From Parcubacteria group bacterium GW2011_GWA2_40_143 (GTDB taxonomy: Bacteria > Patescibacteriota > Minisyncoccia > UBA9983): 32,971 nt of DNA. The stretch lies in assembly GCA_000996035.1 (NCBI GenBank), contig LBYH01000008.1, positions 1 through 32,971 of the forward strand, in the 5' to 3' direction. The stretch's first letter is position 1; every line of letters starts with the position of its first letter. A program made the position numbers and the translations under genes. Of this stretch, positions 7,001 through 30,926 are shown in pieces. The notes below the pieces were generated by a model. The model searched no databases. It saw only the letters and a list, made by a program, of their open reading frames with translations, and was not told the DNA's origin.

Positions 7001-9616
7001 GCTATCGGAGTAGTAATTCGTAGTTCTTGAGCCAATTGTGCTAAGAAGCGTCCACGAGGAATTATCAGTTGATCTGTAAACGTGATATGAACCGAAGCCG
7101 GGGCTCGAATCACTTACCGCTTCCCACGCGATAAAAAGTCTATATTCAGCCGGCGAAGTGCTGGTGTTTGTGGTATCTTGAATCATTACATTTGTGGGAG
7201 TGGCCGGAGTGGCAACGGAAACAATAGCTGATTCATTACCATAAGCATCTTTAAATTTGGCATAAACGGTATCGGGATCCGTACCCAAAGATATCGTTGA
7301 CGATGTATTGTATGACCCCCAGCTCGCTCCCGACAAATCGCTATTTAAAGAAATTTTCATTTGCAAAGAAGAATTATCCGAGGCGGCGAGAGTGAGAGTG
7401 GCAGGAGTAGTGGTGGCTTTTACTAAGATTGAAGTTGATGTGGGAATAGTGGTATCAATGACAAATTCCGCTGATTGTGCGTTTGCGCTGTTATTGGCGG
7501 CTTCGTTATCATTTGCCGTTACTCTGATTTTTGCCGCGCTGTAATACTGACTGCCAATAGTGGTGCTTGCCGTCCAAGTGGTGGAATATGAAGTAAAAGT
7601 GGATTGATTGACGGATTTGGTGGTAGTGGCAAGAGTAGCGAGTCCTGAATCTATCGCCGTCCAAGACGCGCCGTTCCAATATTCAAAAGACGGTGTAATA
7701 TATCCCGGGTTTGCCGTGCCGGAATTAGTATCGCTGTCTCTTGTTTCGTAAGAAATTGTTACCAAGCCGTCAGTCCCTTGGCTTGCTGTTACGGTTTGAA
7801 TCTCTGGCGCGGCATTGACGACATAGGTAAATGTAACATCGGAAAGCGTGGGGGTATTTAATCCCGTGCCCGTCATAAAAACTTTGTATTGAACCCATTG
7901 GTCATTGCCTCCGCTCGTAAAAGCGGACGGTATGGCTTCTCCTCCGGCTGGGTCGGTGAAGTAGGTGTCTGATGTACCATCCGGACCGAGCCATGATGTC
8001 CAAGTTCCGGGCGAACCGGAAGAGTCGGGGGCGGTTCTGAGTTGAAACTTAATATCCGTCGCCGACGGCAAATTTTCCGTCCAAGAAATAGATGCCAGAA
8101 CATTTGCCGCATCGCTGGAGTCATAAGGAGAAGAAGTGAGATCGGTGGAAGTGGCATATTGCTGGTAATTTATGGTGATGTCATCAAGGGAGGGGGTGAA
8201 AGCGCTATCGCTGGATAATAAATCAGCGGCAAAATCCAGAGTGCCGGGAGTAAAGCCACCGGAAGATTCCCATTGGGAAGTGGTGATCGCTTCCAAAGTG
8301 GTGCTGGACATGCCGTTTGTCTGCAAATCATCCAGAGTTGAAGTCGTCCATGCCGAACCATTCCAATACTTCCATGTGGAGCGATTGTCAAAAGATATTA
8401 AATATTTTATGGAAGTATCTGTTGGTGTGGTTTGAGTTATAGAAACGCTAGAAATATTAGCCCAGCCGGAAGTATCCAAATTAGAAGCATCAGCCGTGGT
8501 TACATAATAAGCTTGAGAGGAAGAATATGAACCATAAGGCTTTGACGGAACAGCAAAATTAGATATATGTCTTGCTATACCTTTACTAATTCTGACTTCA
8601 TCTAACCATCCACCGAAAGCTCTAAAACCCTCACCATCTGCGCCTATCTTCAGATTAGCATTAACATTCAACATCGCTGTACTTTGAGATTTTGGCGAGT
8701 CAACTGTAGAACCATTCACAAATAAATACCAATTACTGCCATTTCTATCAATTTCGACATGATACCATGTATTACCTGAAGGTACCCAATTCCAAGTAAT
8801 AATTTTCTCAGTGCCATTAACATACCTAAATATAAAACCAGTTCCAACTTGATTATGCATAAACCATTTAGGTTGCAACCCTCCGCCTTGAGATGTGCCC
8901 ATTATACTCTGAATTTCACTAGGCGTCCCATTCCATCTTATCCAAAAATCTATCGTAAAGTCTGAGTCAAAATACCAATCATTACTATCATTCAGTGAAA
9001 CGTATGAGGAAACTGAATTATTAAACAAAACGCTTGAGTTCCCAAATTTACTCTGAGATGTGCTTATTTGAGCAGCACCATTGGCAGTAACGGTTTTAGG
9101 AGTCATTTCGCTATCAATAAAACTAGTAGATCCATTGGAACCATTTGCGTGTAAAAGCAATTTAGTATATGAATCTATTGCTGTTCCGCTCTCCTCTTGC
9201 AAACTAACAATTCCACTTGCAAAACTTGTACCATTTGTGGCATCTTCTTGAATATAATCGCCTTCAGTATCAAAAGAGACATTGGCGCTTGAAGTACTAA
9301 AAACCATCTGCAAGTCAGCGCCGGAGTTTGCCGTGGTCATACCGGTGGTGCTGGCTGAAAACTGATCCCAACTTGTTTGATTGGTAGGGTGAGCGGCGTT
9401 GTTTGCCGTGGCACCTCCCGCCCAATTGGTCTGGCTGAAAGTATAAGTGGCGGCGGAGGCAGATTGATTATTATTGGTGAAAAACAAATTGCCGGCAAAA
9501 GCGATGATAAGCAAGATAGAAACAAATCTAAATGGCATGAGATAAACTCTCTTTTTTTTCAAAACAACAACCCTTTTTATTTTCCGGATTCGGATGTCTC
9601 TTTGCGTTTTTATCAT
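4064..9616 (-). CDS. Giant (1850 aa) exported surface protein: N-terminal signal/TM segment, LamG/concanavalin-like domain, multiple fibronectin type III-like repeats, Gly-linked coiled coil
   Basis: Hydrophobic N-terminus FVSILLIIAFAGNLFF; LamG-like LLHANGSNGSTSFIDS...FTIDFWIRW; repeated FnIII motifs (ITWITDE.A.S.V.YG...HSVTLSGL...T.Y.Y.V.S.D..GN). Confidence 0.85.
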   Translation of the reverse strand: MIKTQRDIRIRKIKRVVVLKKKRVYLMPFRFVSILLIIAFAGNLFFTNNNQSASAATYTFSQTNWAGGATANNAAHPTNQTSWDQFSASTTGMTTANSGADLQMVFSTSSANVSFDTEGDYIQEDATNGTSFASGIVSLQEESGTAIDSYTKLLLHANGSNGSTSFIDSEMTPKTVTANGAAQISTSQSKFGNSSVLFNNSVSSYVSLNDSNDWYFDSDFTIDFWIRWNGTPSEIQSIMGTSQGGGLQPKWFMHNQVGTGFIFRYVNGTEKIITWNWVPSGNTWYHVEIDRNGSNWYLFVNGSTVDSPKSQSTAMLNVNANLKIGADGEGFRAFGGWLDEVRISKGIARHISNFAVPSKPYGSYSSSQAYYVTTADASNLDTSGWANISSVSITQTTPTDTSIKYLISFDNRSTWKYWNGSAWTTSTLDDLQTNGMSSTTLEAITTSQWESSGGFTPGTLDFAADLLSSDSAFTPSLDDITINYQQYATSTDLTSSPYDSSDAANVLASISWTENLPSATDIKFQLRTAPDSSGSPGTWTSWLGPDGTSDTYFTDPAGGEAIPSAFTSGGNDQWVQYKVFMTGTGLNTPTLSDVTFTYVVNAAPEIQTVTASQGTDGLVTISYETRDSDTNSGTANPGYITPSFEYWNGASWTAIDSGLATLATTTKSVNQSTFTSYSTTWTASTTIGSQYYSAAKIRVTANDNEAANNSANAQSAEFVIDTTIPTSTSILVKATTTPATLTLAASDNSSLQMKISLNSDLSGASWGSYNTSSTISLGTDPDTVYAKFKDAYGNESAIVSVATPATPTNVMIQDTTNTSTSPAEYRLFIAWEAVSDSSPGFGSYHVYRSTDNSSWTLLSTIGSRTTNYYSDSTASADTTYYYKIATVDADGNDSYMSSSVSGTANGIQDGEEGGGGSSSVPPVISSVSSNGTQTESSEIRWTTDNLSNSVVGYCVAPCSDFTTNQTTVDSYVTTHSVTLSGLTPNTTYSYKVFSTDASSNTASSSGYTVSTNDGPTISNVSVINVSNVSADIAWNTNEAASGYVFYSTTTPVTASDNEAGWATLSASRTVSLTSLAGGTKYYFFVKSQDADNNWGYDYNITNGTTTYYTLTTPLDITPPTISGVASTTSRSAATITWITDETADSQVIYGATTAYGATTTLNSTLTRTHSVSLSSLLPSSTYNFKVISSDASGNQATSSNYTFATESFDIADVTASTVSNTSMSITWNTNESATSQVEYSTFSDLSSSAFFPSTPSSAATSHAITLSPLSEGTTYYYRASSTDAIGSNTTSQIYQFTTGDATAPAISTVAASPVADTTAVITWITDEPANSKVYYGSTSGTLTSSTDTDSTLTRNHSVTLSGLSYETAYYYQVVSSDGNSNTATSSEGSFTTLEQQINISQQTINTTTIVSGGGGGSGSGGGISLDMYNNVKRERDVIKKERDDLKEEMDSLKNKILGIDLTDGGSFSPVDVISMVINKFTDISESYAETTVSNERTPEQIAALEKDLVPAITSLRQLTRLIPPPKLKTEPRVDALSTEASVKWETDKPSTAAVYYSEDQYYSPSDPDVYTGSVENASNYNINHSITLKGLTPFTKYHYRLMSESEAGAKAYSSDFTFTTNSEMPSIFGGEVRRVGDTSIAVSWKTNIPANSAVIYTPIRGGKPNAKEAKTEGLPEFSKDHNVMLTNMQPDTVYVLEISSTDHFNNVVTKKLDTYSVTKDQAPPEIVQVRAESSILSGSTDKVQTIIYWKTDEPSTTKVVYERGANIKENGEFTKSTMENEDLTLNHIAVITSWEPGVIYQFRAVSVDAFGNEAQSKTFTVLTPKQKATVLDLIINNFSDTFNWTKEIKF

Positions 9617-10938: not shown

Positions 10939-12177
10939 TTATTTGTATCTTAAAGCGTTTAACGGATCCATCCTTGCCGCCTTTCGGGAAGGGAAAAAAC
11001 CAGTCCCAAGCCCTACCACCGAAGCGAAAAAGATTATAGCAATGATAAACCACGCCGGATAATAAAATAAATTTACCGATTTGCCTCCCAAGGCGTTCGC
11101 CAAAAAAGCAATGCTTAAATTAAAAAATTGAGAGAGAAGAAAACCCATAACGAGTCCGCTTACGCCGCCCAAAAATCCTATTATCGCGGATTCCAACATA
11201 AACAACCTCTGCACGTCTCTTTCCGTGATGCCAAAAATTTTCATGACTCCGATTTCATTTGTTCTCTCAAGCAAAGCTATCGTCATGGTATTTATCATGC
11301 CCACCACCGCCACCACCAGCGCGGCTATACCAAAAAAGGCTAAGATGATTTTAAAAATATTAAATATCTTATTCGCCTGATCTACGGTATCAGCGATAGT
11401 GGATACATTAAATCCCATATCAATCAATAAATCTTTTACTTCCTCCATATCTTTGTCGCTTCTTATAACCACTCTGGCCGAGCTGTATGGCAAACCGGTA
11501 TCGGACATGAAAGAAATAGGGAGATAGACAACGCTTTGATCGCCGTTATCCATTACGTCAATAATTTTAAAATCCCCCTCTTTCTGCATTATTTTGATAC
11601 TTTCCGTGCCGTCTATTATTTCCGGCACATAAAATATTATTTTTGTTTTTTTGTTTGCGAAGCTGCTGCCGACACTTTCCAAGATACGCCCCATGCCGGA
11701 AGATATGATAAGGCCGGCTTCACCTTGTTTTGGATAATTGCCTTTCTGCATAAGATTGACATTTGACTTAAAAAAACTTTCCGTAACGCCGGTAAACAAT
11801 ACTTCAAAAGCGGCATCGCCATCCTGAAAATCCAATTGACCGGGAACGGAAATGACCGAGTCAATTCTTTCCACTTTTTCATTTGCCGCTATTTTGCTTA
11901 TCACCTGATCATTTATGGGAAATATATCTTTGTTTGGCGAAGATATATCTATGGTAAGCAAAGCTTCTTTGGAAGAAATTTGTTTAAGCAGTATGTTTTG
12001 CAAACCATAGCCAAGAGATATGAGAAAAAAGATAGTGGCAAAACTGACTCCGATGCCAAGCACGGTAAGAAGAGTTCTTCCTGTCTTAACTTTAAAATTT
12101 CGGAGAGACAAGAATAGCAGATCTTTCAGTCTGATATTTTCAACTTTATGTTTTTTGTTTTTTGTTCCAAAAAGCAT
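10939..12177 (-). CDS. ABC transporter permease, MacB/FtsX family
   Basis: N-terminal TM, MacB-type periplasmic domain, C-terminal FtsX region (ALLERTNEIGVMKIFGITERDVQRLFMLES); adjacent to the ATPase. Confidence 0.9.
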   Translation of the reverse strand: MLFGTKNKKHKVENIRLKDLLFLSLRNFKVKTGRTLLTVLGIGVSFATIFFLISLGYGLQNILLKQISSKEALLTIDISSPNKDIFPINDQVISKIAANEKVERIDSVISVPGQLDFQDGDAAFEVLFTGVTESFFKSNVNLMQKGNYPKQGEAGLIISSGMGRILESVGSSFANKKTKIIFYVPEIIDGTESIKIMQKEGDFKIIDVMDNGDQSVVYLPISFMSDTGLPYSSARVVIRSDKDMEEVKDLLIDMGFNVSTIADTVDQANKIFNIFKIILAFFGIAALVVAVVGMINTMTIALLERTNEIGVMKIFGITERDVQRLFMLESAIIGFLGGVSGLVMGFLLSQFFNLSIAFLANALGGKSVNLFYYPAWFIIAIIFFASVVGLGTGFFPSRKAARMDPLNALRYK

Positions 12178-12216: not shown

Positions 12217-13890
12217 TTATTCAAAATATTCCGGCGCGTTTTTAGCTATCCAGTCCAAGAGACGGCTTGTGGCGTATGGCGCGCCGGTAGTGGTGCCGGC
12301 CGGACCATTCTCTAGTAGCATGGTAAAAATATACTTCGGGTTCTCATAAGGGAAAAAGCCCATAATCCAAGAGTGAATGAAGCGCTTGCCGGCGCCGGTT
12401 TCGGCCGTGCCGGTTTTGGCGGCAATCTTTACTTCCGGTCGGCTCAGCCCTTGGGCAGTGCCGCCAGTTACCGCCATTCTCATGCCTTCTTTTACTATTT
12501 TGAAATATTCATCCGGAATTTTTATTTTCTTACCGTCATATTCAGACAGGTTTTCGTCTTTTACAATTTTTGGCTTAAGCAAGATTCCATTGTTGGCTAT
12601 GGCGGCGGTGTAAACAGCTATCTCAAGAGGAGTGGAAAGAAAATAACCCTGTCCGATGCTTGATATATACGTGTCGCCTATTCGCCAAAGAGGATCGCCC
12701 GGATTATTTTGCTTTTTCACTTCTTGACTTGGCACCACACCAGAAGCTTCGCTTGGCAAATCTATGCCGGTGCCATCTCCAAGCCCAAACATTTTGGCAT
12801 ACTCCTCAAGTTTGTTTATGCCAAGACCTCTTATTTCCTCATAACCGCCACCTATCTCGTAGAAATACACATCGGATGAAACAGCGAGAGCTCTCTTCAT
12901 ATCCACCCAACCATGCGCTTTCCAATCTTTAAACACGCTTTTAATTTCCGGGTAAAAAGGATTTTGCACCGAGATACTGCCGGAGCTGAATATTTGCTTA
13001 TCCGGCGAAATTATTCCTTCGTTTAAAGCAGCGATGGCCACCATGGGTTTTACCACCGAGCCGGGCGCGTATAATCCGGAAATCGCTCTGTTTAAAAATG
13101 GCTTATGATCGTCTGTTAAAAAAGCATTGATCTTATCTGCCGGCTTGCCTCTGGACATAATTTGAGAATCATACTCCGGCCAGCTGGCCATAGAAATTAT
13201 TTCTCCCGTTCGCGCGTCCATAATAATGCCAACTCCACCGGAAAATTTATTGTTTTTAGCGGTATCTCCCAATATCTTATACATCTCGCTCTGAAGTTTG
13301 GCGTCTATGGAAAGATAAATATTGTCTCCGCTTTGAGGATGAGTCTGGACGCTTTCGGAAATAATATTTCCTTGGGAGTCTCTTTCCGCCAAAGCCGTGC
13401 CGACGATTCCTCTTAATTCTTTCTCAAAGTTTTTTTCTACGCCACTTTTACCGATCTCCATATTAAGCAAAATGTCTTTGTCTGATTCAATATCTTCTTT
13501 GGAAGGAAGTCCCACGTAACCCAAGGTATGACTAAGTCCGTCCATGTCGGTATAAAGTCTCTCCTTCTCTCCGTTCCAAGCAAGAATTATATTGTTTCGG
13601 TCATAAATTACTCCTCTCATGGGAGCAAGCGTTTCTTTTCTGAGTTTATTGTTTAAGCTTCTGTTTGCCAGTTCGTCTCCCCGCACAATTTGCAAGTAAA
13701 ACACTTTGGAAGTAAAGAACATGGCTATCAAAAAAAGAGCGGCGGAAAAATACAAAAAAGTTTTTTTGGATATGGCTCTCTCAAACCGGCCTTCAAATTG
13801 GCTGGTTTCAAAGTTTGGCATATTGCGAGAATCTATAAGAATCTCATCGGGAAAAATATTTTGTTTGAATTTTTTTTTCTTGAAAAACAT
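12217..13890 (-). CDS. mrdA: Penicillin-binding protein 2 (peptidoglycan transpeptidase)
   Basis: SxxK in YAPGSVVKPM, KTGTAE motif, RGVIYDRNNIILA dimer domain; in the mre cluster. Confidence 0.92.
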   Translation of the reverse strand: MFFKKKKFKQNIFPDEILIDSRNMPNFETSQFEGRFERAISKKTFLYFSAALFLIAMFFTSKVFYLQIVRGDELANRSLNNKLRKETLAPMRGVIYDRNNIILAWNGEKERLYTDMDGLSHTLGYVGLPSKEDIESDKDILLNMEIGKSGVEKNFEKELRGIVGTALAERDSQGNIISESVQTHPQSGDNIYLSIDAKLQSEMYKILGDTAKNNKFSGGVGIIMDARTGEIISMASWPEYDSQIMSRGKPADKINAFLTDDHKPFLNRAISGLYAPGSVVKPMVAIAALNEGIISPDKQIFSSGSISVQNPFYPEIKSVFKDWKAHGWVDMKRALAVSSDVYFYEIGGGYEEIRGLGINKLEEYAKMFGLGDGTGIDLPSEASGVVPSQEVKKQNNPGDPLWRIGDTYISSIGQGYFLSTPLEIAVYTAAIANNGILLKPKIVKDENLSEYDGKKIKIPDEYFKIVKEGMRMAVTGGTAQGLSRPEVKIAAKTGTAETGAGKRFIHSWIMGFFPYENPKYIFTMLLENGPAGTTTGAPYATSRLLDWIAKNAPEYFE

Positions 13891-14990: not shown

Positions 14991-16035
14991 GTAATATGTC
15001 TCCCAAATTTTCTATTTCTTCAAGAATAATGCCGGTGCCTCTCACCACGGCGGTAAGCGGATCTTCCGCCACATACACAGGTATGCCAAGTTCGCTTTCA
15101 AACATTTTAGACAAACCCCTCAAGAAGGCGCCGCCGCCGGCCATTATTATACCACGATGCATAATATCTGAAACAAGCTCCGGCGGTGTTTCTTCCAGCA
15201 CCTCTTTGGTGGCATCCACCAAAGACTCTATGGATTTTATGATAGCTTCTCTTACGTCCGAATCGGTAATCACCACTTCTCTGGGCAAACCAGTGATGAG
15301 ATCTCTCCCTCTTACAGCCGCCTCAAGACCCTCGCCTTTTTTTATAACAGACCCTACGGCAATCTTTAAGTCTTCCGCCGTTTTTTCACCCAAAAGAATT
15401 TTAAATTCGTCTCTTACATATTGGATAATATCCTGATTAAGCTTGTCTCCGGCCACGCGCATGTTTTTGGAAGACACTATGCCGCTTAAAGAAATTACGG
15501 CAATATCGGTGGTGCCGCCACCTATGTCTATGATCATATTGCCTACCGGTTCATGCACCGGCAGTCTTACTCCCACGGCTGCCGCCATCGGCTCTTCCAC
15601 AATCATCACTTCGCCGGCGCCGGCGCTCTTGGCGGCGTCTCTCACCGCCCTCACTTCCACGTTTGTAATGCCAGACGGAACGCCAATCACTACTCTCGGC
15701 CTGGCGAAAATACCTCTGCTGCTTTTCGTAACTTTTTTTATAAAATAAGCGAGCATCTCTTGAGTAACTTCGTAATCGGACACTACGCCGTCCACTAACG
15801 GTCTTATCGCTTTTATGTGAGCCGGTGTTCGGCCAAGCATTCTCTTGGCCTCATTGCCTATAGCCACCACCTGACCGGTTTTCTCGTTTATCGCCACCAC
15901 CGACGGCTCATTTATCACAATACCTTCGCCTTCCACGTACACCAGAGTATTGGCCGTACCAAGATCTATGCCGATTCCGCCCGAGAGAAGCATTCTTTTG
16001 AATTTCCCAAAAATTTTAAAGTTTTTGAATTTCAT
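14959..16035 (-). CDS. mreB: Rod shape-determining protein MreB
   Basis: GIDLGTANTLVYVEGEGIVINEPSVVA, IDIGGGTTDIAVIS. Confidence 0.97.
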   Translation of the reverse strand: MKFKNFKIFGKFKRMLLSGGIGIDLGTANTLVYVEGEGIVINEPSVVAINEKTGQVVAIGNEAKRMLGRTPAHIKAIRPLVDGVVSDYEVTQEMLAYFIKKVTKSSRGIFARPRVVIGVPSGITNVEVRAVRDAAKSAGAGEVMIVEEPMAAAVGVRLPVHEPVGNMIIDIGGGTTDIAVISLSGIVSSKNMRVAGDKLNQDIIQYVRDEFKILLGEKTAEDLKIAVGSVIKKGEGLEAAVRGRDLITGLPREVVITDSDVREAIIKSIESLVDATKEVLEETPPELVSDIMHRGIIMAGGGAFLRGLSKMFESELGIPVYVAEDPLTAVVRGTGIILEEIENLGDILLDHEEAIPPK

Positions 16036-17328: not shown

Positions 17329-17709
17329 TCACTTAATCTTATTTTTCTCCAAAAAATCTCTGACTTTTTTAACCACGTCAGGGGGCATTACGACGGTTTT
17401 TTCCCAAAAATATTCAGCTCCAAGTTCCAGCATTTGACTTTGGAATTTCCTTTTGTCCATATTGGTTAAAATGATAACTGGAATATTTTTTGTTTCGGGA
17501 TTTTTTTTAAGCCTTTTGATCACTTCCTCGCCGGACATTTCTTCCATATTCAAATCAAGAATAATCAAATCGGGGTGTTCATTTTTAGCCCTGTCCAAAC
17601 CGATTTTGCCGTCAATAGCGCTTATAATATTAAAACCGTTCATTTTAAAAACAGTATGATAAAGCAATATCTGATCGTTGTCGTCTTCAATTAGCAATAT
17701 TTTTGCCAT
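17329..17709 (-). CDS. Response regulator receiver protein
   Basis: IEDDNDQ, DLIILDLNM phospho-acceptor, VIILTNMDK; single REC domain. Confidence 0.92.
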   Translation of the reverse strand: MAKILLIEDDNDQILLYHTVFKMNGFNIISAIDGKIGLDRAKNEHPDLIILDLNMEEMSGEEVIKRLKKNPETKNIPVIILTNMDKRKFQSQMLELGAEYFWEKTVVMPPDVVKKVRDFLEKNKIK

Positions 17710-17713
17710 AAAA

Positions 17714-19270
17714 TTAAGTTTGAAAAGTTATAATAAATTCCGTTCCTTTATTTTCTTCGCTATTAAATTTTATACTTGCCTCGCTATGAGCGTCTATGAT
17801 TTCCTTTGATATGAAGAGTCCGAGTCCCGAGCCATCCGTATACATATCTCTAGCATTTCTCGCCCGTTCAAACTTTCCGAACATTCTGCTCTTGTCTTCG
17901 TTTGGTATGCCAACCCCCGTGTCTTTAACTTTAACGATAACCTCTTTCTCGTCTTCGTCCAACATAATATCAATCCTGCCAGCTTTCGTATATTTTATAG
18001 CATTATCCACAATGTTTGCAATCGCCTGCGTCAAATAAAATTCATCGGAAATAATCGGCGAAATCTTGGCTCTCGTTTTAATGAAGTTCAATTCCAACCC
18101 TTTCTCGTCGGCTTCTTCTTTGGAATCGTCTTTTATTTTTATGAGTAATTTCTCCAAATCAACCGGTTCCAACCTTCCTTCCGGTAAAGAAAATTTTTCC
18201 GTGTCAAATTCAGACGCCGACAATATATCGCGGACAATGCCGGAAAGCTTAACCGACTTGCGGTAAATGTTTTCCACGAATTTTTTCTGCTGTTCTTTGG
18301 GAAGTTTGCCAATGGATCCTTCCCTAAACATTGAAGCGGTGCCCATAATGACGGATATGGGCGTTTTAAGCTGATGCGACGCGATATCCAAAAATTCCGA
18401 TCTCATCTTCATCAATTTTTCAATATGCTCTCTTTGTCGCACCTCTTTAAAAACGCTTCTGATCAAAAAATAACCGATAAGAATCGCCACCAAAAAAATA
18501 ATTATCTTAAACCACAAGTTATTATCATTAAAGAAAATATTTACAAACAAAATGGAAAGCAATAATCCGACAAGAATTTCTGATGTTATTGTTTTAATAC
18601 CCATCAAATGATGTTTGGTTATGGCGTAAGTTATAGCCACAACCATTATTATTAACGAATATGGGCCAATCCAAACAAATTGATATGTGTAAAAAGGAAG
18701 GAATAAATTAAAAGCAAGAGCAAAAATACTGGCGGTAATTGTTCCAAAAACAATGAACTTTAATTGAGTTTTTTCAATACCGGACACATTTCTAAAACGT
18801 TTGATAATGGCGAAAATGGCATAACCCATATAACTGACAATATGCGTCACGTAGAAAAAATAAGCAGGTCCTAATTTAATACTTTTTCCCCATGGTTCTA
18901 GTGAATAATCTTTTATAAAATGAAAATTAGCAAGCAATATGATTATCGTGATTATGTTCGGCGAATGAATAAGCAAGTGATTTAAAAAATTTATTTTACC
19001 TATATTTTTATTGTCAAAAAATAACGCGAAATATAAAAAATAAGTGATACAAAAGGAAGCGCTTATGTAAAAAAGTGTCGCCCAATATATTCCATTTTCA
19101 AAACTGCTCATTCTGAACATACCAAGACCAAATATCCAAAAAAAGGTGGCAACAAGCGTTAAAAAGAAAAAGAAATTGGCTTTATTTTTTAAGCCACGAA
19201 AAAATATTAACGCCGCCAAACCGCCGTTAAGCAAAGAAATTAAAAGAAGAGTTAATGTTATCATATTCAT
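17714..19270 (-). CDS. Sensor histidine kinase with multi-TM N-terminus
   Basis: H-box DIASHQLKTPISV, N-box NIVDNAIKYT, G-boxes KDTGVGIP, DGSGLGLFISKEI. Confidence 0.93.
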   Translation of the reverse strand: MNMITLTLLLISLLNGGLAALIFFRGLKNKANFFFFLTLVATFFWIFGLGMFRMSSFENGIYWATLFYISASFCITYFLYFALFFDNKNIGKINFLNHLLIHSPNIITIIILLANFHFIKDYSLEPWGKSIKLGPAYFFYVTHIVSYMGYAIFAIIKRFRNVSGIEKTQLKFIVFGTITASIFALAFNLFLPFYTYQFVWIGPYSLIIMVVAITYAITKHHLMGIKTITSEILVGLLLSILFVNIFFNDNNLWFKIIIFLVAILIGYFLIRSVFKEVRQREHIEKLMKMRSEFLDIASHQLKTPISVIMGTASMFREGSIGKLPKEQQKKFVENIYRKSVKLSGIVRDILSASEFDTEKFSLPEGRLEPVDLEKLLIKIKDDSKEEADEKGLELNFIKTRAKISPIISDEFYLTQAIANIVDNAIKYTKAGRIDIMLDEDEKEVIVKVKDTGVGIPNEDKSRMFGKFERARNARDMYTDGSGLGLFISKEIIDAHSEASIKFNSEENKGTEFIITFQT

Positions 19271-21678: not shown

Positions 21679-23043
21679 TTAAACTAAAACAGGTTTCTGT
21701 GCCTTAGCTTTAATGCACAACCACAAATCTCTTATAATCCAATCTATTGTCATTTTGGCATGAACACAAAACCTCTCATCTAGTTCCCATATTGATCCTT
21801 TTGAAATTTCAGCGTCACAAGGACATCCACCACCGCACGTGCCAAGCGCGACGCAAGATTGACATTTTTCCATAGTGATAGGCGAACGTTTTTTCCATTC
21901 TTTGTATGTTGGGGTGTCCTCAACAATCAACTCATTGTCAAATACAGTCCCAACGAAATGCTTGCGCGATCCAATGTAACCATGGCAAATTCCGACTTGA
22001 CCATCTGGAGCAACAACTAATTGCCTACCGCCTCCGGCAGCACAATCGTATGGATGTATTTTCTGCTTTGAAAAAGAATTTATTTTCCGCATAATTCTAT
22101 CTTCATAGATTCCTTTTTCCCTGAAAATCTTATATGCGTTTATTATAAACTCAGCAGCTCTAGTCTCATAATCTTCTCTGAGTTTAATAGAATGTCCGCG
22201 AGCCAATATATTGAAACCTAAACCCTTGACCCCAATCTCATTAATCAAAAACTCGATAGTGCTTTTTTGATTTTTAATCGTTTCTTCGTTGATAGTGCAA
22301 GATATTCCAACAGGAATATCTTTACTTTTCAATAGTTTTATTTTTTTCATCACACGATCAAAAATCGGCTCTCCGTAAAAATCACGACGGTGTAGGTTGG
22401 TTGCAATTTTTTCACCATCAATAGATATTGAAACATTTACCTTTTTCTCGCGTATGAAATCCGCCAATTCAGATGTAAAGAATAGACCATTAGAAACCAT
22501 GTTAATGCTTAATGACTTTGGCAAGGATCCTTTTTCTTTAAGATGCGCAATATATTTTATGGCTTCCATAAAAACTTTTTTATTCATTAGTGGCTCGCCA
22601 CCATAAAATATAATTGTTTTTTTCTTCTCAAAGTAATCTGGATGTCGTTTTATGGCTTCAGCAAAAAAATCAATCGATTTTTTTGCCGTTTCGGTTGACA
22701 TAAAAATTCTACTTTGCTCTTCTGGTATTTGATTTTCTATAAAACAATAATCGCAAGCCAAATTACATGCATCTGTTAAAAGTAAGTACATAACAGAGAC
22801 TGGCGATGGTAAAGACATCAATGATTTTATTGTTTTGTCTAACAAGTTTTTATCTTCATCTTCTGATTTAACTACCATTCCAGCACTATATAACTTATCA
22901 CTATAAGCATCAAGTTTATTCAGTCCTTCTATTTGATTAATTAATTCTCTGGAAACAAATATGACTTTAATGTTTAGAGAATGATATAGTGCCACCATAT
23001 CTTTATCAACCGGTATTGTGTGAACAAATCTAGACAATTTCAT
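21679..23043 (-). CDS. Radical SAM/SPASM peptide maturase
   Basis: LTDACNLACDYCF (CX3CX2C), FYGGEPL, SPASM Cys cluster CQSCVALGTCGGGCPCDAE...FCVH; start with RBS AAGGAGG at 23043 (ORF track extends to 23148). Confidence 0.93.
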   Translation of the reverse strand: MKLSRFVHTIPVDKDMVALYHSLNIKVIFVSRELINQIEGLNKLDAYSDKLYSAGMVVKSEDEDKNLLDKTIKSLMSLPSPVSVMYLLLTDACNLACDYCFIENQIPEEQSRIFMSTETAKKSIDFFAEAIKRHPDYFEKKKTIIFYGGEPLMNKKVFMEAIKYIAHLKEKGSLPKSLSINMVSNGLFFTSELADFIREKKVNVSISIDGEKIATNLHRRDFYGEPIFDRVMKKIKLLKSKDIPVGISCTINEETIKNQKSTIEFLINEIGVKGLGFNILARGHSIKLREDYETRAAEFIINAYKIFREKGIYEDRIMRKINSFSKQKIHPYDCAAGGGRQLVVAPDGQVGICHGYIGSRKHFVGTVFDNELIVEDTPTYKEWKKRSPITMEKCQSCVALGTCGGGCPCDAEISKGSIWELDERFCVHAKMTIDWIIRDLWLCIKAKAQKPVLV

Positions 23044-23126: not shown

Positions 23127-23276
23127 TCATGGATAACATGAACCGCAATCACAAGCACATTGACAATCGCAAGCCGTACAATTTAATCCATCAAATGATT
23201 CCATGTCTAAATTGCTCTTGATTTGAATTAAATCATTTTGATCCGGCTCGTAAAAAATTATCTCAATGTTCCCCAT
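23127..23276 (-). CDS. Cys-rich RiPP precursor peptide (49 aa), ranthipeptide/thioether-type candidate
   Basis: MGNIEIIFYEPDQNDLIQIKSNLDMESFDGLNCTACDCQCACDCGSCYP*; RBS AAAGGAGGT upstream of ATG; 7 Cys in the last 17 residues; directly upstream of the radical SAM/SPASM gene; absent from the ORF track (<60 aa). Confidence 0.88.
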   Translation of the reverse strand: MGNIEIIFYEPDQNDLIQIKSNLDMESFDGLNCTACDCQCACDCGSCYP

Positions 23277-23280
23277 TTTT

Positions 23281-23519
23281 AACCTCCTTTCTTTTTTCTA
23301 ACTTTCCAAAAATAAAATACGGTTTGTGTTTTTTCTTTGTCGGTCATACCTCCTTTCTTGATTTAATGGTTATTTTTATTAATTTTTTAAAGAATCAATC
23401 TATTTTAGAGGCTACCATAGGGGGGGGGTAAAAGTCAATCGTAAGAAAAATTCGCGCTTCTGTTTTTTTACACCTCCGGTAACTCCACGCCCAACGTCAA
23501 ACCCCAATGTCAAGGTTGA
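23281..23519 (-). repeat. Leader/promoter repeat copy R1
   Basis: 23429-23519 is identical to 30836-30926 (91 bp, or 99 bp counting the shared G8); the remainder is similar with small indels. Confidence 0.92.
23411..23438 (-). promoter_or_regulatory. Promoter: TTGACT / TTTA C9 TATGG / TAGCCT
   Basis: -35-like TTGACT and extended -10 TGGTAGCCT separated by 18 nt that include a C9 tract. Confidence 0.6.
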
Positions 23520-24556
23520 GTCTCATGCAAACTTTTTTTGCTCACCCATTCATTTGCTTTATGGGCATTAAACGGACCAGGTCCGAGAATAATCATCTTT
23601 GATGCCATTTTTCCAAGAAAAGAGCCGTCAGTAAAATAATTTACTGAACCACTCTTATTGCCGGTGATTTTTTCTATATCAGAAATAAAATTTTCATCAT
23701 CGCATTGTACCGGCAGAACTGAAAATTTTGTTTCCACCCTGGCATTATATTTTTTCGCGATTTTCAAAAAGTTTTCAATTATCTTCTTGTTTTGTTTTTC
23801 TGCAACAGTGCGACATTCCACTTCTAAAACACACTCGGCTGGCACTTTATTAACAGCATCTCCTCCTTTAATTTTTCCAAAATTAATAGTGGTATAATTA
23901 GGAGAAAAAATATCATTTTTATAATCCTTTACGCCAGCAAAATATTCTTGAATTTCTTTAATAAAATCGCAAGCAAGAATTATGGCGTTTAGTCCTTTTT
24001 CCGGTTCGCTTCCGTGACATTCTTTGCCATAAAAATTAATCACAAAAGAAAGAATTCCCTTGGATGCAATCATCGGCTCAAGATTTGTTGGCTCTCCGAC
24101 AATAACATATTCAGTATTTATTTTTTCAGTTTTCATAAAATCAGTTATTCCTTCAAAGTTTGTTTCTTCATCATACGTGAGTAACAGATTGAAACCATTT
24201 TTGCAATTTTTAAAATTTATTTGCGATACTGCCGACAATAAAGAAGCAATCCCGCCCTTCATATCAGAACTGCCAAGCCCATAAATTTTATCTCCATCAA
24301 TTTTCATTGCAAAAGGATCAATCGTCCAGTTTTCCCCAGCAGAAATAGTGTCCGTGTGTCCTAAAAAGGTTAGGGCCGGTTTACTTCCAATTGTGACAAA
24401 TAGGCTTGCTTTGTTTGATTCTTTATTTTCCACTAATTCAATCTTAAAACCTAAAAGACACAGGAAGTTGGCTATCCATTTTACTATTTCATTATTATCC
24501 TTATCCTCAACCGTATTAAATTTTATTAATCTTTCTAAGATCTTTTCAATATTCAT
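23510..24556 (-). CDS. M20 family metallopeptidase/deacylase (ArgE/DapE/CPG2-like), 3' end truncated at repeat R1
   Basis: LGHTDT, GLGSSDMKGG, DEETNFEG, GEPTNLEP, GPGPFNAHKANEWV; last codons and stop fall inside repeat R1. Confidence 0.85.
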   Translation of the reverse strand: MNIEKILERLIKFNTVEDKDNNEIVKWIANFLCLLGFKIELVENKESNKASLFVTIGSKPALTFLGHTDTISAGENWTIDPFAMKIDGDKIYGLGSSDMKGGIASLLSAVSQINFKNCKNGFNLLLTYDEETNFEGITDFMKTEKINTEYVIVGEPTNLEPMIASKGILSFVINFYGKECHGSEPEKGLNAIILACDFIKEIQEYFAGVKDYKNDIFSPNYTTINFGKIKGGDAVNKVPAECVLEVECRTVAEKQNKKIIENFLKIAKKYNARVETKFSVLPVQCDDENFISDIEKITGNKSGSVNYFTDGSFLGKMASKMIILGPGPFNAHKANEWVSKKSLHETQP

Positions 24557-24631
24557 ATATTTTTTCCTTCTTCTTTTTCACTTTTTTCTCAAAGCGGATC
24601 TTTTCATGCTTTCGGATTTTAGCGGAAAGGG

Positions 24632-25354
24632 CTAAGACAAAAATTTTTCTTCTATACTTATTATTTCTCCAGAAATAAAAATTTTATTGCTCTTAATAAA
24701 AACCTTAAAAATGGAATTGCTAGGTTGCTTAATCTGAAACTTTTCTATTTTATATTTTGAATACATAAAATATGCTAATGCCATTGTCCCTGAACCACAA
24801 GCAGTTTCTTCAATTAAAGTATCTATATCTTTAACCCATATTATTGGTTTTATTGAAAATATATTTTTATTTTTCTTATAAGAAATTACACCTGATGCAG
24901 GAAAATTATTATAATTTTTTACTAATAGTTTTTTTGCTTCACTTTTTATTATTTCTTTATTCGTTATAAAATACGCAATTCCAGTTAAAAAACATGAATT
25001 TTTTGAACATCTAAAGTTATTTAAAGATAGCTTAATTTCAGAAGTATTATCTTCCACGGTTGCCTCAATAAAATTATCTTGCCCAGAAGATTCAAGTCTG
25101 ATTTTTGTTTTACCCGTATCATTTTTAATTAACATAGCAAGACACCGTAGCGCATTCCCACAAAATTCTCCTCCTGCCATTTCTAATCTCCCGTCGTTAT
25201 TTTTATCTTTTGCGCGCACCCAAAAACCTACCTGCTCAATAGTAGGATCCTTTTTCATTATTATTTTTGATAATTTTATTTTTTCCTTTTGGCTATAATC
25301 GCTTTTAACAATAGCAGTTATATTTCCACCTGGATTTACCTTGTAGTATTTCAT
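24632..25354 (-). CDS. PLP-independent amino-acid racemase/epimerase, DapF superfamily, CntK-like (histidine racemase family)
   Basis: NPGGNIT N-terminus, EQVGF, MAGGEFCGNALRC and EETACGSGT (both catalytic Cys); N-terminus lacks the DapF HGxGNDF signature. Confidence 0.65.
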   Translation of the reverse strand: MKYYKVNPGGNITAIVKSDYSQKEKIKLSKIIMKKDPTIEQVGFWVRAKDKNNDGRLEMAGGEFCGNALRCLAMLIKNDTGKTKIRLESSGQDNFIEATVEDNTSEIKLSLNNFRCSKNSCFLTGIAYFITNKEIIKSEAKKLLVKNYNNFPASGVISYKKNKNIFSIKPIIWVKDIDTLIEETACGSGTMALAYFMYSKYKIEKFQIKQPSNSIFKVFIKSNKIFISGEIISIEEKFLS

Positions 25355-25362
25355 AATAATAA

Positions 25363-25390
25363 AATGGGGGTGTTTAAAAACACCCCCATT
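25363..25390 (-). terminator. Putative terminator hairpin
   Basis: AATGGGGGTGTTTAAAAACACCCCCATT, perfect 13-bp inverted repeat. Confidence 0.65.
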
Positions 25391-25405
25391 GATAAATTTG
25401 AAGCG

Positions 25406-26347
25406 TTATAATTCAGATATGAAATGCTTTAGTTTCTCATACCCTCGTTCAAGTACCTCCTTTGCAACCTCGTGTGGTAAAGAAAACTTTTCTACTCCCG
25501 CGAATTCTTGTAAAAGAATCTTGTAATCGCGGAGTATATTTTTTACCTTACCTTGGTTGCTGTCAAGCAATGAACTCAAGAGGCGAAACATTTCATCAAC
25601 ACTGTCTGGTAAATCACAACCAAACACTGGTTCATTTTCGTAACAGTAGTATGTGGGAGGATCGCCAATTTGCGTAAAGATTTGTGTTGATTTCCATTGC
25701 TCATGGAAACCCATCCTTTCAACCATTTGTTGCCGAAATCTATAGAATATTTTTTCTGCTGGACCACCGATCATGATTATGTGTTTATGATTTAAAGACA
25801 TTTCTTTGACCAGTAAACACTCTTTCATATTTGGAACATTGATCGGATCTCTCATGTAAAAAATATGTTCTATCATGTACTGAATTGCGTTCATTCCACC
25901 ACGCTTATCGGCAAATGCTTTAATCTGCTCATCTGATTGATATATTTTCAAAGCGGACGGCATTAGACTTTTAATAACGTTAGTAAACGCAGAGAATGTG
26001 CCACTATCAATTAAGACTTCAAGCTCAATCTGGTAAAAAGTTTTCACATATTTTTGTAAAGCTTTTTTTACTAAATCGCATGAGTTTTGATAGTTGTTAG
26101 AGTTTGCTCTTTCAACACCATGCTTTGCGATATATAGATTTATGGCTGGGTTGCCAAGCTGTGTAGAAAGTCGCATCACTGGTATGGGATAAGCAAGCAA
26201 TCGGATAGGAACTTTTTGATTAAGACCATATCCTTGAGCAAGACAGATTTCTTGATTTCTACTGGGTTTGATTTCTCGAAAGAATTTTCCAATTTTTCCG
26301 CCTTCGTTGTTTAAAAGGTTGGTGATAAGTTCGTCTCTGAATTTCAT
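25406..26347 (-). CDS. Orphan protein, ~314 aa (family not recognised)
   Basis: Start MKFRDEL with upstream GAGGGG; long uninterrupted ORF between HisRS and the racemase. Confidence 0.75.
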   Translation of the reverse strand: MKFRDELITNLLNNEGGKIGKFFREIKPSRNQEICLAQGYGLNQKVPIRLLAYPIPVMRLSTQLGNPAINLYIAKHGVERANSNNYQNSCDLVKKALQKYVKTFYQIELEVLIDSGTFSAFTNVIKSLMPSALKIYQSDEQIKAFADKRGGMNAIQYMIEHIFYMRDPINVPNMKECLLVKEMSLNHKHIIMIGGPAEKIFYRFRQQMVERMGFHEQWKSTQIFTQIGDPPTYYCYENEPVFGCDLPDSVDEMFRLLSSLLDSNQGKVKNILRDYKILLQEFAGVEKFSLPHEVAKEVLERGYEKLKHFISEL

Positions 26348-26375
26348 TTTTTCCCCTCTTTTTGTAAAAGTAAGC

Positions 26376-26409
26376 GTCGACACTACCAAGCAACCTTGGT
26401 AGTGTCGAC
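26376..26409 (-). promoter_or_regulatory. Perfect 15-bp hairpin with 4-nt loop between HisRS and the orphan gene
   Basis: GTCGACACTACCAAG-CAAC-CTTGGTAGTGTCGAC. Confidence 0.7.
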
Positions 26410-26422
26410 TTAGAAAATAATT

Positions 26423-27796
26423 TTACCTCACTTCAGCGCAAATATCATCCAAACCTGAAAAACGCTGTTCTCCCGTTTCAAGATTCTTAACCTGAACACC
26501 GTCATTGTTGACTTCATCATTCCCGGCAATAATAGCAAACTTAAATCCCTTCTTACTAGCGTATTTAAGTTGATCGCCTATTCGCTTTGAGTCAAAGAAA
26601 ACTTCTGTTTTAATGCCGCTGTTCCTCAATAAAGTGGCAATCTTGAAATAATAAGACATCAACGATTTATCCATTGAAGTGACTAACACCGGAGCTACAG
26701 TGGCCGGACCAGTTTTCAGTATTCCAGTTTTAAGCAATTGCGAAAAAAGTCTTGTTAATCCTATTGAGATTCCAACGCCTGGCATTTTTTTGTCACCAAA
26801 AAAACTCGTTAAATTGTCGTAGCGGCCGCCGGAACAAATACTTCCAATTTCAGGATAATCAACCAGCGTTGTTTCGTAAATCGTCCCAGTGTAATAATCC
26901 AAACCGCGAACAATACCAAGGTTAACTTTGTAGCTATCTTGAGGAATACCCAAGGTAGCCATGTGTCCAATCACTTGTTCGAGCTCGTCAACTCCTTGCA
27001 AAAACAATTCATTATCTATCTTGCAAGAACGAAGATATTCCATTATTTCATTGATTGGTTTGTTAATGCCGGCAAAATTAATTATGCCGTCAATAATGTC
27101 AGCGCCTATTCCTTTTTCCGCCATTGTTTCTCTTGTTTTGTCTACCCCGACTTTTTCAAGCTTGTCTATCGCATGCATAGCCTCGTTAATGCAATGGTTA
27201 GTTAATCCATAAAAGCTAAAATAGCCCTGAAGTATTTTCCTGTTATTCACTCCGATCATAAACTTCCCAATATTCATTTGTTTGAATATTTGGTAAATTA
27301 CACTCGGCATTTCAGCATCTACCAGAAGAGGCAAATCTTTATCTCCCACAACATCAATATCACATTGATAAAACTCGCGATACCGGCCGGACTGAGGCCT
27401 TTCACCTCTCCAAACTTTTTGAATCTGGTAGCGACGGAATGGAAAATTTAAAAGACTATAGTTTTGTGCGACATAGCGTGCCAACGGCACCGTTAAATCA
27501 AAATGAAGCGCCAAATTTTGGTCATTGTCACCAGAATAATTAGACAGACGCCCCAAAGTGTAGATTTCCCTGTCGTTAGATCCTTTAGCGATAAGCATGG
27601 CCGTTTTTTCAACAGCGCTTGTCTCTATCGGAGAAAATCCGTACTTTTCAAAATTGTCGCGTATGATGTCTAAAATTTTCTGCTCCAAAATTCTTTCTTC
27701 CGGCAACCATTCCGGGAAACATTTACATTGTAGCACATCCTTTCCATTCAATAAAAAGTTCGAAAAAACAGAATTGACAATTTTTGTCGGTTTCAC
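26423..27796 (-). CDS. hisS: Histidine--tRNA ligase (GTG start)
   Basis: FDLTVPLARYVA, RYQIQKVWRGERPQSGRYREFYQCDIDVVG, GLDYYTGTIYE, SGGRYDNL; AAGGAGGTG at the start. Confidence 0.9.
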   Translation of the reverse strand: MKPTKIVNSVFSNFLLNGKDVLQCKCFPEWLPEERILEQKILDIIRDNFEKYGFSPIETSAVEKTAMLIAKGSNDREIYTLGRLSNYSGDNDQNLALHFDLTVPLARYVAQNYSLLNFPFRRYQIQKVWRGERPQSGRYREFYQCDIDVVGDKDLPLLVDAEMPSVIYQIFKQMNIGKFMIGVNNRKILQGYFSFYGLTNHCINEAMHAIDKLEKVGVDKTRETMAEKGIGADIIDGIINFAGINKPINEIMEYLRSCKIDNELFLQGVDELEQVIGHMATLGIPQDSYKVNLGIVRGLDYYTGTIYETTLVDYPEIGSICSGGRYDNLTSFFGDKKMPGVGISIGLTRLFSQLLKTGILKTGPATVAPVLVTSMDKSLMSYYFKIATLLRNSGIKTEVFFDSKRIGDQLKYASKKGFKFAIIAGNDEVNNDGVQVKNLETGEQRFSGLDDICAEVR

Positions 27797-28903: not shown

Positions 28904-29896
28904 TTAGAAATGATACTGCTCGGGTGCGACAAGAAGTTCAGCGATAGCTTCCCCAATCGGCAATCCCGTTAAACGTTCAATCCAAAGCCATTGTCCATTG
29001 GGGTTTATCTCGAGAAAAACGTAGTTATTTTGTGGCGTAACAATTACGTCAATGCATCCGAAAGCAAGGCCTAATTGACGTACGAGCGTCCGACATTTTT
29101 CTTCAATCTCTACTGGAAGCTCAAACGATTCATGTGGCGTATTAGCCAAGTCGTAATGTCGCCAATCTTCTCGCGTTCTTTCAGACTTCTGCGAAAAGAT
29201 TGCGCAGGCAAAAACCTTATCACCTACAACTGTAATTCTAATTTCAAACTTTTTCGGTACATATTCCTGTATGATAGTGGGACAATTTTGCAATTGTTTT
29301 AGCATACCTTGAAGATTATCTGCATCCATGCGTTTTGTATACATAATTAGTGAATCAACACCATTGTGTTCCTGAAACTCAATGCTAGGCATACATATAG
29401 TTTTAAGCGCTACTTCGTCAAGGTCGTCAAGAAACTTATATGCCGCCTGCGCTGAGTTTGTAATCAATGTCTTAGGAATATTAAAACCAATAGACTTGGC
29501 TACCAATAATTGATACGATTTTCTTGAAGCTACGCCAATTGCATCAGGGTCACTAAGCCAGAATACCGATGGCGAGAGGATTTGTGGCAATGAATCAAGA
29601 AAAAATTGGGATTCTCTAGTTATATATTCCCTTACATTTTGACTATTTACCCCAATTGGCGGAGAGGGAGCGCCTTTGCGGCGATTCCAAACGCTCTTTA
29701 CATCACGACAGTCAATCAAATTTTGTCCAACAGACAATCGAACAAAATTTGAATCCACAGAGACTTCAAAACTAATGCTACTTTTTTTTGGGTAAGTTGA
29801 AAAATCAAAGAGTAAATGGCACACGCCCTTTCTAGTTAAAATCTCACTCACATATTGGCAATGAGCGTCATCTGGATTTGACAATACAAAGATCAT
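28904..29896 (-). CDS. ATP-grasp RiPP ligase (MvdD/graspetide synthetase-like)
   Basis: N-terminal MIFVLSNPDDAHCQYV; IIQEYVPKKFEIRITVVGDKVFA; VFLEINPNGQWLWIERLTGLPIGEAIAELL; RBS AAAGGAGG. Confidence 0.88.
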   Translation of the reverse strand: MIFVLSNPDDAHCQYVSEILTRKGVCHLLFDFSTYPKKSSISFEVSVDSNFVRLSVGQNLIDCRDVKSVWNRRKGAPSPPIGVNSQNVREYITRESQFFLDSLPQILSPSVFWLSDPDAIGVASRKSYQLLVAKSIGFNIPKTLITNSAQAAYKFLDDLDEVALKTICMPSIEFQEHNGVDSLIMYTKRMDADNLQGMLKQLQNCPTIIQEYVPKKFEIRITVVGDKVFACAIFSQKSERTREDWRHYDLANTPHESFELPVEIEEKCRTLVRQLGLAFGCIDVIVTPQNNYVFLEINPNGQWLWIERLTGLPIGEAIAELLVAPEQYHF

Positions 29897-29897
29897 T

Positions 29898-30440
29898 TTA
29901 GACCTCCTTTATATTTTTTCTTTTGTTTTTTTTATTCAAACCAACATTCAATCTTAACCGTTTCATGTTGACAGTAAACGATTCAAGGCCAGCATTTTTT
30001 CTTCGTCTTGCTAAATTTTTTTTATCTCTAATAAGATAAGGTTTCAAAAGATTTTGTTCTGATTCATAACGAAACTGAGTGCCATAAATCTGCTTTTTCC
30101 TATTTTTAACAAGCATGCGATCAATCAAATAAGCAAGATTTTTTTTACTCGCTTCTCCTATTTTTACTGCTTTTTTTATAAGACACAAACATTTTTCTTG
30201 GAATTTAACATCATGATCAGCATGTTGGGCAATTAACCATGCGGCATCTGCCGCCTTTTCACCAACTAAACTTTTACCAGGCCAACCATATTTATTGATT
30301 ATCTTCTTGAGTTTTTCAGTATTTTTCATATCAACATTTGCATTCCAATTAGACCGTTTTTTCATAAAAAGTTTTCTCATTTTTTGGTCTCTTTCAATCA
30401 TCAACAACAGGGATTCTTTGATTTTTTTATTGGGGACCAT
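29898..30440 (-). CDS. DUF6624-like protein
   Basis: AAWLIAQHADHDVKFQEKCLCLIKKAVKIGEASKKNLAYLIDRMLVKNRKKQIYGTQF pattern; start codon in hairpin arm. Confidence 0.7.
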   Translation of the reverse strand: MVPNKKIKESLLLMIERDQKMRKLFMKKRSNWNANVDMKNTEKLKKIINKYGWPGKSLVGEKAADAAWLIAQHADHDVKFQEKCLCLIKKAVKIGEASKKNLAYLIDRMLVKNRKKQIYGTQFRYESEQNLLKPYLIRDKKNLARRRKNAGLESFTVNMKRLRLNVGLNKKNKRKNIKEV

Positions 30441-30489
30441 ATATACTAAATCATACTAGAGTTTGGTTTAGTAGTCTATGGTCCCCATT
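30429..30489 (-). promoter_or_regulatory. Long imperfect hairpin between graspetide precursor and DUF6624 gene
   Basis: GGGGACCATA...TACTAAA / TTTAGTA...TATGGTCCCC, ~17 bp paired; contains the ATG at 30440. Confidence 0.7.
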
Positions 30490-30506
30490 TTTTATGGATG
30501 ATTATT

Positions 30507-30689
30507 TCAATCCGTATCGTATGATCCAGGTCCATCCGGGTGAGACATGCTTTCTTCTCCCGCAAACCTCGTTCCCATATCAATATTATAATTTCCTCGC
30601 TTAGCTGGTTCCCCAAACAAAAACATCAATGGGATCATTTCTAAATTATCACCCGGAAAAAATTCCTTTAAATCATTCATTTTGTTCAT
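30507..30689 (-). CDS. Graspetide-like precursor peptide (60 aa)
   Basis: MNKMNDLKEFFPGDNLEMIPLMFLFGEPAKRGNYNIDMGTRFAGEESMSHPDGPGSYDTD*; RBS GGGAGGTG; Ser/Thr plus Asp/Glu-rich C-terminus; upstream of the ATP-grasp ligase. Confidence 0.75.
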   Translation of the reverse strand: MNKMNDLKEFFPGDNLEMIPLMFLFGEPAKRGNYNIDMGTRFAGEESMSHPDGPGSYDTD

Positions 30690-30699
30690 TGCTATCACC

Positions 30700-30926
30700 T
30701 CCCTTTTCTTCCTAAAATTTCCAGAAAATAAAATACGGTCTTTTCTTTGTCGGTCTCACCTCCTTTCTTGATTAATGGTTATTTTTATTAAATTTTCAAA
30801 GAATCAATCTGTCTTAGAGACTACCACGGGGGGGGTAAAAGTCAATCGTAAGAAAAATTCGCGCTTCTGTTTTTTTACACCTCCGGTAACTCCACGCCCA
30901 ACGTCAAACCCCAATGTCAAGGTTGA
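30700..30926 (-). repeat. Leader/promoter repeat copy R3
   Basis: 30836-30926 identical to 23429-23519; homologous leader elements downstream; TTGACT/C8/GTGGTAGTCT promoter. Confidence 0.92.

Follow-up and report, generated by a model that had tools for sequence, protein, structure and literature searches.

A run of cytosines on the minus strand of the window, the 32,971-nt stretch that is the entire contig C8 of an uncultured ultra-small CPR bacterium, very probably forms the spacer of a shared promoter-leader module, of which the genome (729 kb, 24 contigs) carries nine copies. The best explanation, which we consider evenly poised, is that this module may be portable, and that its poly-C spacer would set a cassette-specific promoter strength and could drift in length. 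The whole-genome statistics given here rest on pattern searches.

Three copies lie in the window, all on the minus strand, with the common layout TTGACT-[TTT(T)A-C8/9-...]-TGGTAG(C/T)CT. The R1 promoter core (23438-23409) reads TTGACT TTTACCCCCCCCCTATGG TAGCCT, with TTGACT at 23438-23433, a C9 run at 23428-23420 and the extended -10 TGGTAGCCT at 23417-23409, which leaves a spacer of 18 nt. The R2 core (27880-27850) carries C9 plus an extra T and has a spacer of 19 nt, and the R3 core (30845-30818) carries C8, a spacer of 16 nt and TAGTCT as its -10. The original prediction had described the same -35-like and extended -10 elements at R1 and the same three spacers, all confirmed in the sequence, except that its R1 end coordinate of 23411 was 2 nt short of 23409, where the sequence it quoted ends. 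The only runs of C8 or longer in the window are those of R1, R2 and R3, and overlapping C8 matches numbered 5 versus 0.43 expected, a count that 1 of 100 shuffles reached.

Genome-wide, the pattern TTGACNTTTN{0,2}C5N{0,7}TGNTANNNT gave 9 matches, versus 0 for the reversed-pattern control, and TTGACTTTT(T)(A/G)C6-9 was found at nine places, three on contig C8, five on contig C11 and one on contig C4. R1, R2 and R3 are not independent, being members of a nine-strong paralogous family. On contig C11, the copy at 4925 has C8 and a spacer of 16 nt to the TAnnnT hexamer, that at 7735 C8 and 16 nt, that at 12235 C6 and 15 nt, and those at 15616 and 29943 each C6 and 14 nt; the contig C4 copy has C9, a 19-nt spacer and the hexamer TAAGAT. 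A homopolymer stands between the -35 and the -10 (elements assigned by sequence match only) in all nine copies, and each has TTGACTTTT, a pure C6-C9 run and TGRTAnnnT, the last being kept even in the contig C4 copy, where the -10 interior is changed (TAAGAT vs TAGCCT). No leader copy without a C-run was found: whether the query was the leader by itself or the -10 together with the beginning of the leader, the exact matches were module members only. Since searches that omit the C-run still recover only tract-bearing copies, the purity of the tract is not just ascertainment. The upstream contexts differ (one type at R1, R3 and contig C11, another at R2 and contig C4, and a third at C11:29943), and the homology common to all starts at TTGACT.

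As for the genes behind the module, eight of the nine copies head radical-SAM, ATP-grasp or aminoacyl-tRNA-synthetase cassettes (RiPP-like), and one heads a truncated HisRS copy. The module is therefore a common gateway to cassettes of RiPP-like and related kinds, most of which are predicted to make modified peptides. Behind R1, a Cys-rich short ORF of 49 aa (MGNIEIIFYEPDQNDLIQIKSNLDMESFDGLNCTACDCQCACDCGSCYP; 23127..23276, minus strand), below the 100-aa limit of the ORF list, is a candidate RiPP precursor by position and composition, and a radical SAM peptide maturase lies at 21679..23043 on the same strand (TIGR04136 FibroRumin-like, 386.5 bits, just under the cut-off of 400). The R2 cassette (23510..27796, minus strand) has four genes, encoding a HisRS (26423-27796) that passes the equivalog cut-off (389.8 vs 286.75 bits), an unknown protein of 327 aa (25406-26389), a CntK/HisR-like histidine racemase below cut-off (24632-25354) and an ArgE/DapE-like M20 hydrolase (23510-24556); a D-histidine-derived metallophore or peptide pathway is a possible role for this gene set. 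The three genes of the R3 cassette (28904..30689, minus strand) encode a candidate graspetide precursor of 60 aa (MNKMNDLKEFFPGDNLEMIPLMFLFGEPAKRGNYNIDMGTRFAGEESMSHPDGPGSYDTD; 30689-30507), also below the 100-aa limit, a DUF6624 protein (29898-30440) and an MvdC/MvdD-type ATP-grasp ligase (28904-29896). Its sequence PLMFL agrees, as judged by eye, with Phhx(1,2)h, the leader signature published for graspetides (PMC8939145). An inverted repeat, GGGGACCATA...TATGGTCCCC, was also seen between the R3 precursor and the DUF6624 gene (window 30430-30490, minus strand), and the listed start codon of the DUF6624 gene falls within its 3' arm.

On contig C11, the cassettes comprise a short ORF with a radical SAM/SPASM gene (4925), IGPS-like and B12-radical SAM genes (7735), a short ORF with radical SAM and ThrRS genes (12235), a radical SAM/SPASM gene (15616), and HemW/HutW-like radical SAM and TrpRS genes (29943). 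On contig C4, the module is followed by a copy of the R2 HisRS start that has suffered a deletion, a truncated duplicate of the beginning of the R2 cassette. Judged by ORF position and protein families, a maturase and a small precursor ORF are predicted directly behind the leader at R1, R3, C11:4925 and C11:12235, and enzymes with no clear precursor were found at R2, C11:7735, C11:15616 and C11:29943. Two TrpRS-like genes lie on contig C11 (L023:4860-5852 and 17630-18637), one of them inside the C11:29943 cassette, and the ThrRS gene (L022:13718-15139) sits in the C11:12235 cassette. Perhaps the synthetase genes travel with the cassettes, for self-resistance or peptide modification.

The comparison with relatives points to the module position as a promoter. 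Orthologues of the C11:15616 maturase have TTGACA-17-TAnnnT, without poly-C, at the module position in three of four relatives (G007, G247 and G029), the fourth (G167) being ambiguous there, and G007 retains a TTCTTTAAAAA leader at the orthologous gene. This positional evidence marks the module position as a promoter, and because the orthologous cassette gene in the relatives lacks poly-C, the poly-C spacer is derived in this lineage. A generic sigma-70 scan with at least 4/6 matches in each hexamer did not call R1-R3, since TAGCCT matches TATAAT at only 3/6 positions; the TG extension perhaps compensates for this weak -10. Searched as a -35/C7 pattern in 57 relatives, the module gave only unrelated single matches, and the full module pattern gave only two isolated unrelated matches outside this genome among 387 genomes of the class, family members included. 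Most of the 63 stretches returned by a collection-wide scan with the core pattern are ordinary promoter-like sites from Clostridia. The one Patescibacteria match (L041, Lake Baikal, TTGACTTTTACCCCCCCCATGGTAAGCT) lies ahead of an unrelated ORF whose beginning resembles a signal peptide, and is probably convergent. In viral contigs, phages and plasmids, the leader and a 191-nt module query had no match, and four core-pattern matches in viral contigs had unrelated flanks.

The tract length differs by 1-3 C among paralogues with near-identical leaders, a comparison within one genome. C11:7735 has C8 and C11:29943 has C6, and their leaders differ by 4 substitutions in 74 nt; C11:4925 has C8 and R1 has C9, with 5 substitutions in 75 nt. 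Outside the module, an unrelated duplicated segment of 621 bp (95% identical) on contigs C3 and C10 holds C9 (C3:57821-57829) versus C10 (C10:14271-14280), so the length of C-runs does change within this lineage. MutS (MutS1, TIGR01070) was found in 0 of 11 family genomes, with control genomes positive, so slippage should go largely uncorrected. C6 runs are short for frequent slippage. Five further sites of the genome, none of them in a promoter of this type, carry runs of C9-C10, so the growth of C-runs may reflect mutational bias and be partly a genome-wide habit. Across the nine copies the spacers measure 14, 14, 15, 16, 16, 16, 18, 19 and 19 nt; five copies stand at 14, 15 or 19, four at 16 or 18, and none at 17. 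By textbook sigma-70 behaviour the copies at 14, 15 or 19 would be weak unless the extended -10 suffices; this distribution may mean either that many copies are OFF or weakly active, or that spacing does not matter to the promoter.

The mechanism that we propose starts from a portable promoter-leader module, present in nine copies mostly ahead of RiPP-like cassettes, whose spacer would be the tract. RNA polymerase would use TTGACT as the -35 and TGRTAnnnT as the extended -10, and the number of C would fix the distance and the relative angle of the two elements and thereby the promoter strength of each cassette. With a slippage-prone C-run and MutS absent, the lengths would drift independently at each copy, and this could bring about cassette-by-cassette tuning and possibly reversible switching, as in a contingency locus. 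We infer, in this scheme, an active promoter, length-dependent expression, and change that is reversible and selected. An effect of spacer length on cassette expression is probable.

The strongest competing reading, which we regard as possible yet clearly less well placed, is an always-active extended -10 promoter in which TGRTAnnnT carries most of the activity and neither the -35 nor its distance counts for much; the C-run would be a slippage product copied with the module, its lengths being neutral noise. Such a promoter agrees with the extended -10 conserved in 9/9 copies, with spacers scattered over 14-19 nt without a cluster at 17, with long C-runs elsewhere in the genome, including the C9/C10 non-module duplicate, and with a likely important HisRS under one copy. 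Yet TTGACTTTT is invariant in 9/9 copies and the homology starts there, which would be unexpected of a dispensable -35, although this invariance is partly ascertainment; moreover, the nine C-runs carry no substitutions, whereas only 20 of 51 columns of the leader after the -10 are invariant.

It is rather unlikely that TTGACTTTTACCCCCC is instead the operator of a dedicated regulator that governs all nine cassettes together as a regulon, the C-run belonging to the sequence recognised and not being a spacer of variable length. An operator would fit the strongly conserved TTGACTTTT(A/G)C6 of the nine copies, the related functions of eight cassettes that share the module and the absence of the module from the other sampled genomes of the class, but the C6-C9 lengths and the extra T of R2 would shift half-sites, the block has no dyad, the TTGAC hexamer, like TGnTAnnnT, suits a core promoter, and no candidate regulator was identified. 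Least likely of all is that the similarity reflects only segmental duplication and gene conversion among the cassettes, ending at a genome-wide dyad, and that the tract has no regulatory meaning: the identity of R1 and R3 over 99 nt, the position of the outer edge of four copies at a dyad that recurs at about 16 places and the truncated contig C4 duplicate speak for it, but it accounts for the spread and not for every copy being a promoter-leader unit directly upstream of a cassette, and the three upstream contexts have in common only the unit from TTGACT onward.

Returning to the poly-C spacer as a strength-setting element, the original prediction had gone further and held that each cassette may be independently phase-variable. 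The promoter-like anatomy with poly-C between the -35 and -10 in nine copies, the length variation among paralogues, the failure to find MutS and the separate cassettes bear this out in part, so that the ingredients of a contingency promoter are present. Against switching itself stand the poor -10, the lack of any copy at the 17-nt spacing of the relatives, the long C-runs outside the promoter, and the fact that R2 heads a HisRS; this HisRS scores above the equivalog cut-off, and turning it OFF would come at a cost if the genome has no second one. True ON/OFF switching, or reversible phase variation in nature, is somewhat doubtful.

Phase variation is best known for pathogen surface genes. In Mycoplasma vlp-type systems, several paralogous promoters carry variable homopolymers, each able to change independently; there the tracts are poly-A ahead of lipoprotein genes, while here they are poly-C ahead of radical-SAM/ATP-grasp cassettes. 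In N. meningitidis, unstable homopolymers lie between the -10 and -35 of porA, fetA and opc (PMC2791445), lengthening of the opc tract from C11 to C12 increases Opc expression, and a mutS- strain showed poly-C variation that its parent did not (PMC3447861). The module resembles opc-type promoters in anatomy, in that a C-run lies in the spacer of a sigma-70-type promoter where one-base changes are possible. It differs from opc, porA and fetA in its shorter C6-C9 runs, in being one module ahead of nine cassettes, and in heading biosynthetic genes of a CPR bacterium instead of surface-protein genes. R3 resembles the CPR graspetide clusters already described, where, too, the gene of an ATP-grasp ligase stands with that of a small precursor; that paper (PMC8939145) makes no mention of phase variation and does not describe the promoter module.

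If the proposal is true, one portable slippage-prone promoter would extend phase variation to natural-product output in an episymbiont-type bacterium. A bolder form, in which the module ahead of eight functional peptide or metabolite cassettes makes up a combinatorial phase-variable arsenal, each cassette switching independently in a MutS-less, reduced CPR bacterium, is put forward only tentatively, and we think it improbable; if it held, cells of one population would show hosts or competitors different product mixtures. The module would also identify this genome's cassettes as a single regulon and aid in finding further cassettes.

The R1 5' leader (23347..23408, minus strand) contains a boxA-like TTCTTTAAAAAATTAA (23394-23379) and a strong Shine-Dalgarno AAGAAAGGAGGT, and homologous leaders are present at R2, R3 and on contigs C4 and C11. 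The conserved part 3' of the -10 consists of the boxA-like TTCTTTRAAAA and, in most copies, the long Shine-Dalgarno sequence; the boxA-like element is possibly an antitermination element or simply a conserved leader. TTCTTTRAAAA also occurs in two relatives (G007 C11:6607-6661 and G005 C36:7409-7459), in leaders of protein-coding cassettes. An rRNA-operon origin of the boxA-like leader was rejected, as the stretch examined upstream of the 16S gene on contig C1 has no poly-C module. The idea that a short upstream ORF of the leader (R1 MTDKEKTQTVFYFWKVRKKKGG, R3 MRPTKKRPYFIFWKF) encodes an attenuator peptide was rejected as well, since its frame and start codon differ between copies.

The R1 upstream block (23439..23519, minus strand) is identical to R3 30846-30926, which gives 99 identical nt including the module start, and its outer edge is half of the genome-wide dyad (CAACCTTGACATTGG). 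This dyad, CCAATGTCAAGGTT(G/C)AACCTTGACATTGG, was found at about 16 places in the genome, including window positions 23504-23518 and 30911-30925 and contig C11 positions 12142-12170 and 15523-15551, and also on contigs C2, C3, C5, C10, C12, C14 and C20. On their outer side, the modules of R1 and R3 end at the dyad centre, with one half retained, as if the dyad were a recombination or transposition endpoint. Finally, in the C11:7735 leader the Shine-Dalgarno is followed at once by another homopolymer, G8 (GGAGGTGAGGGGGGGGTGAGC; C11:7825-7832), the second of that copy.
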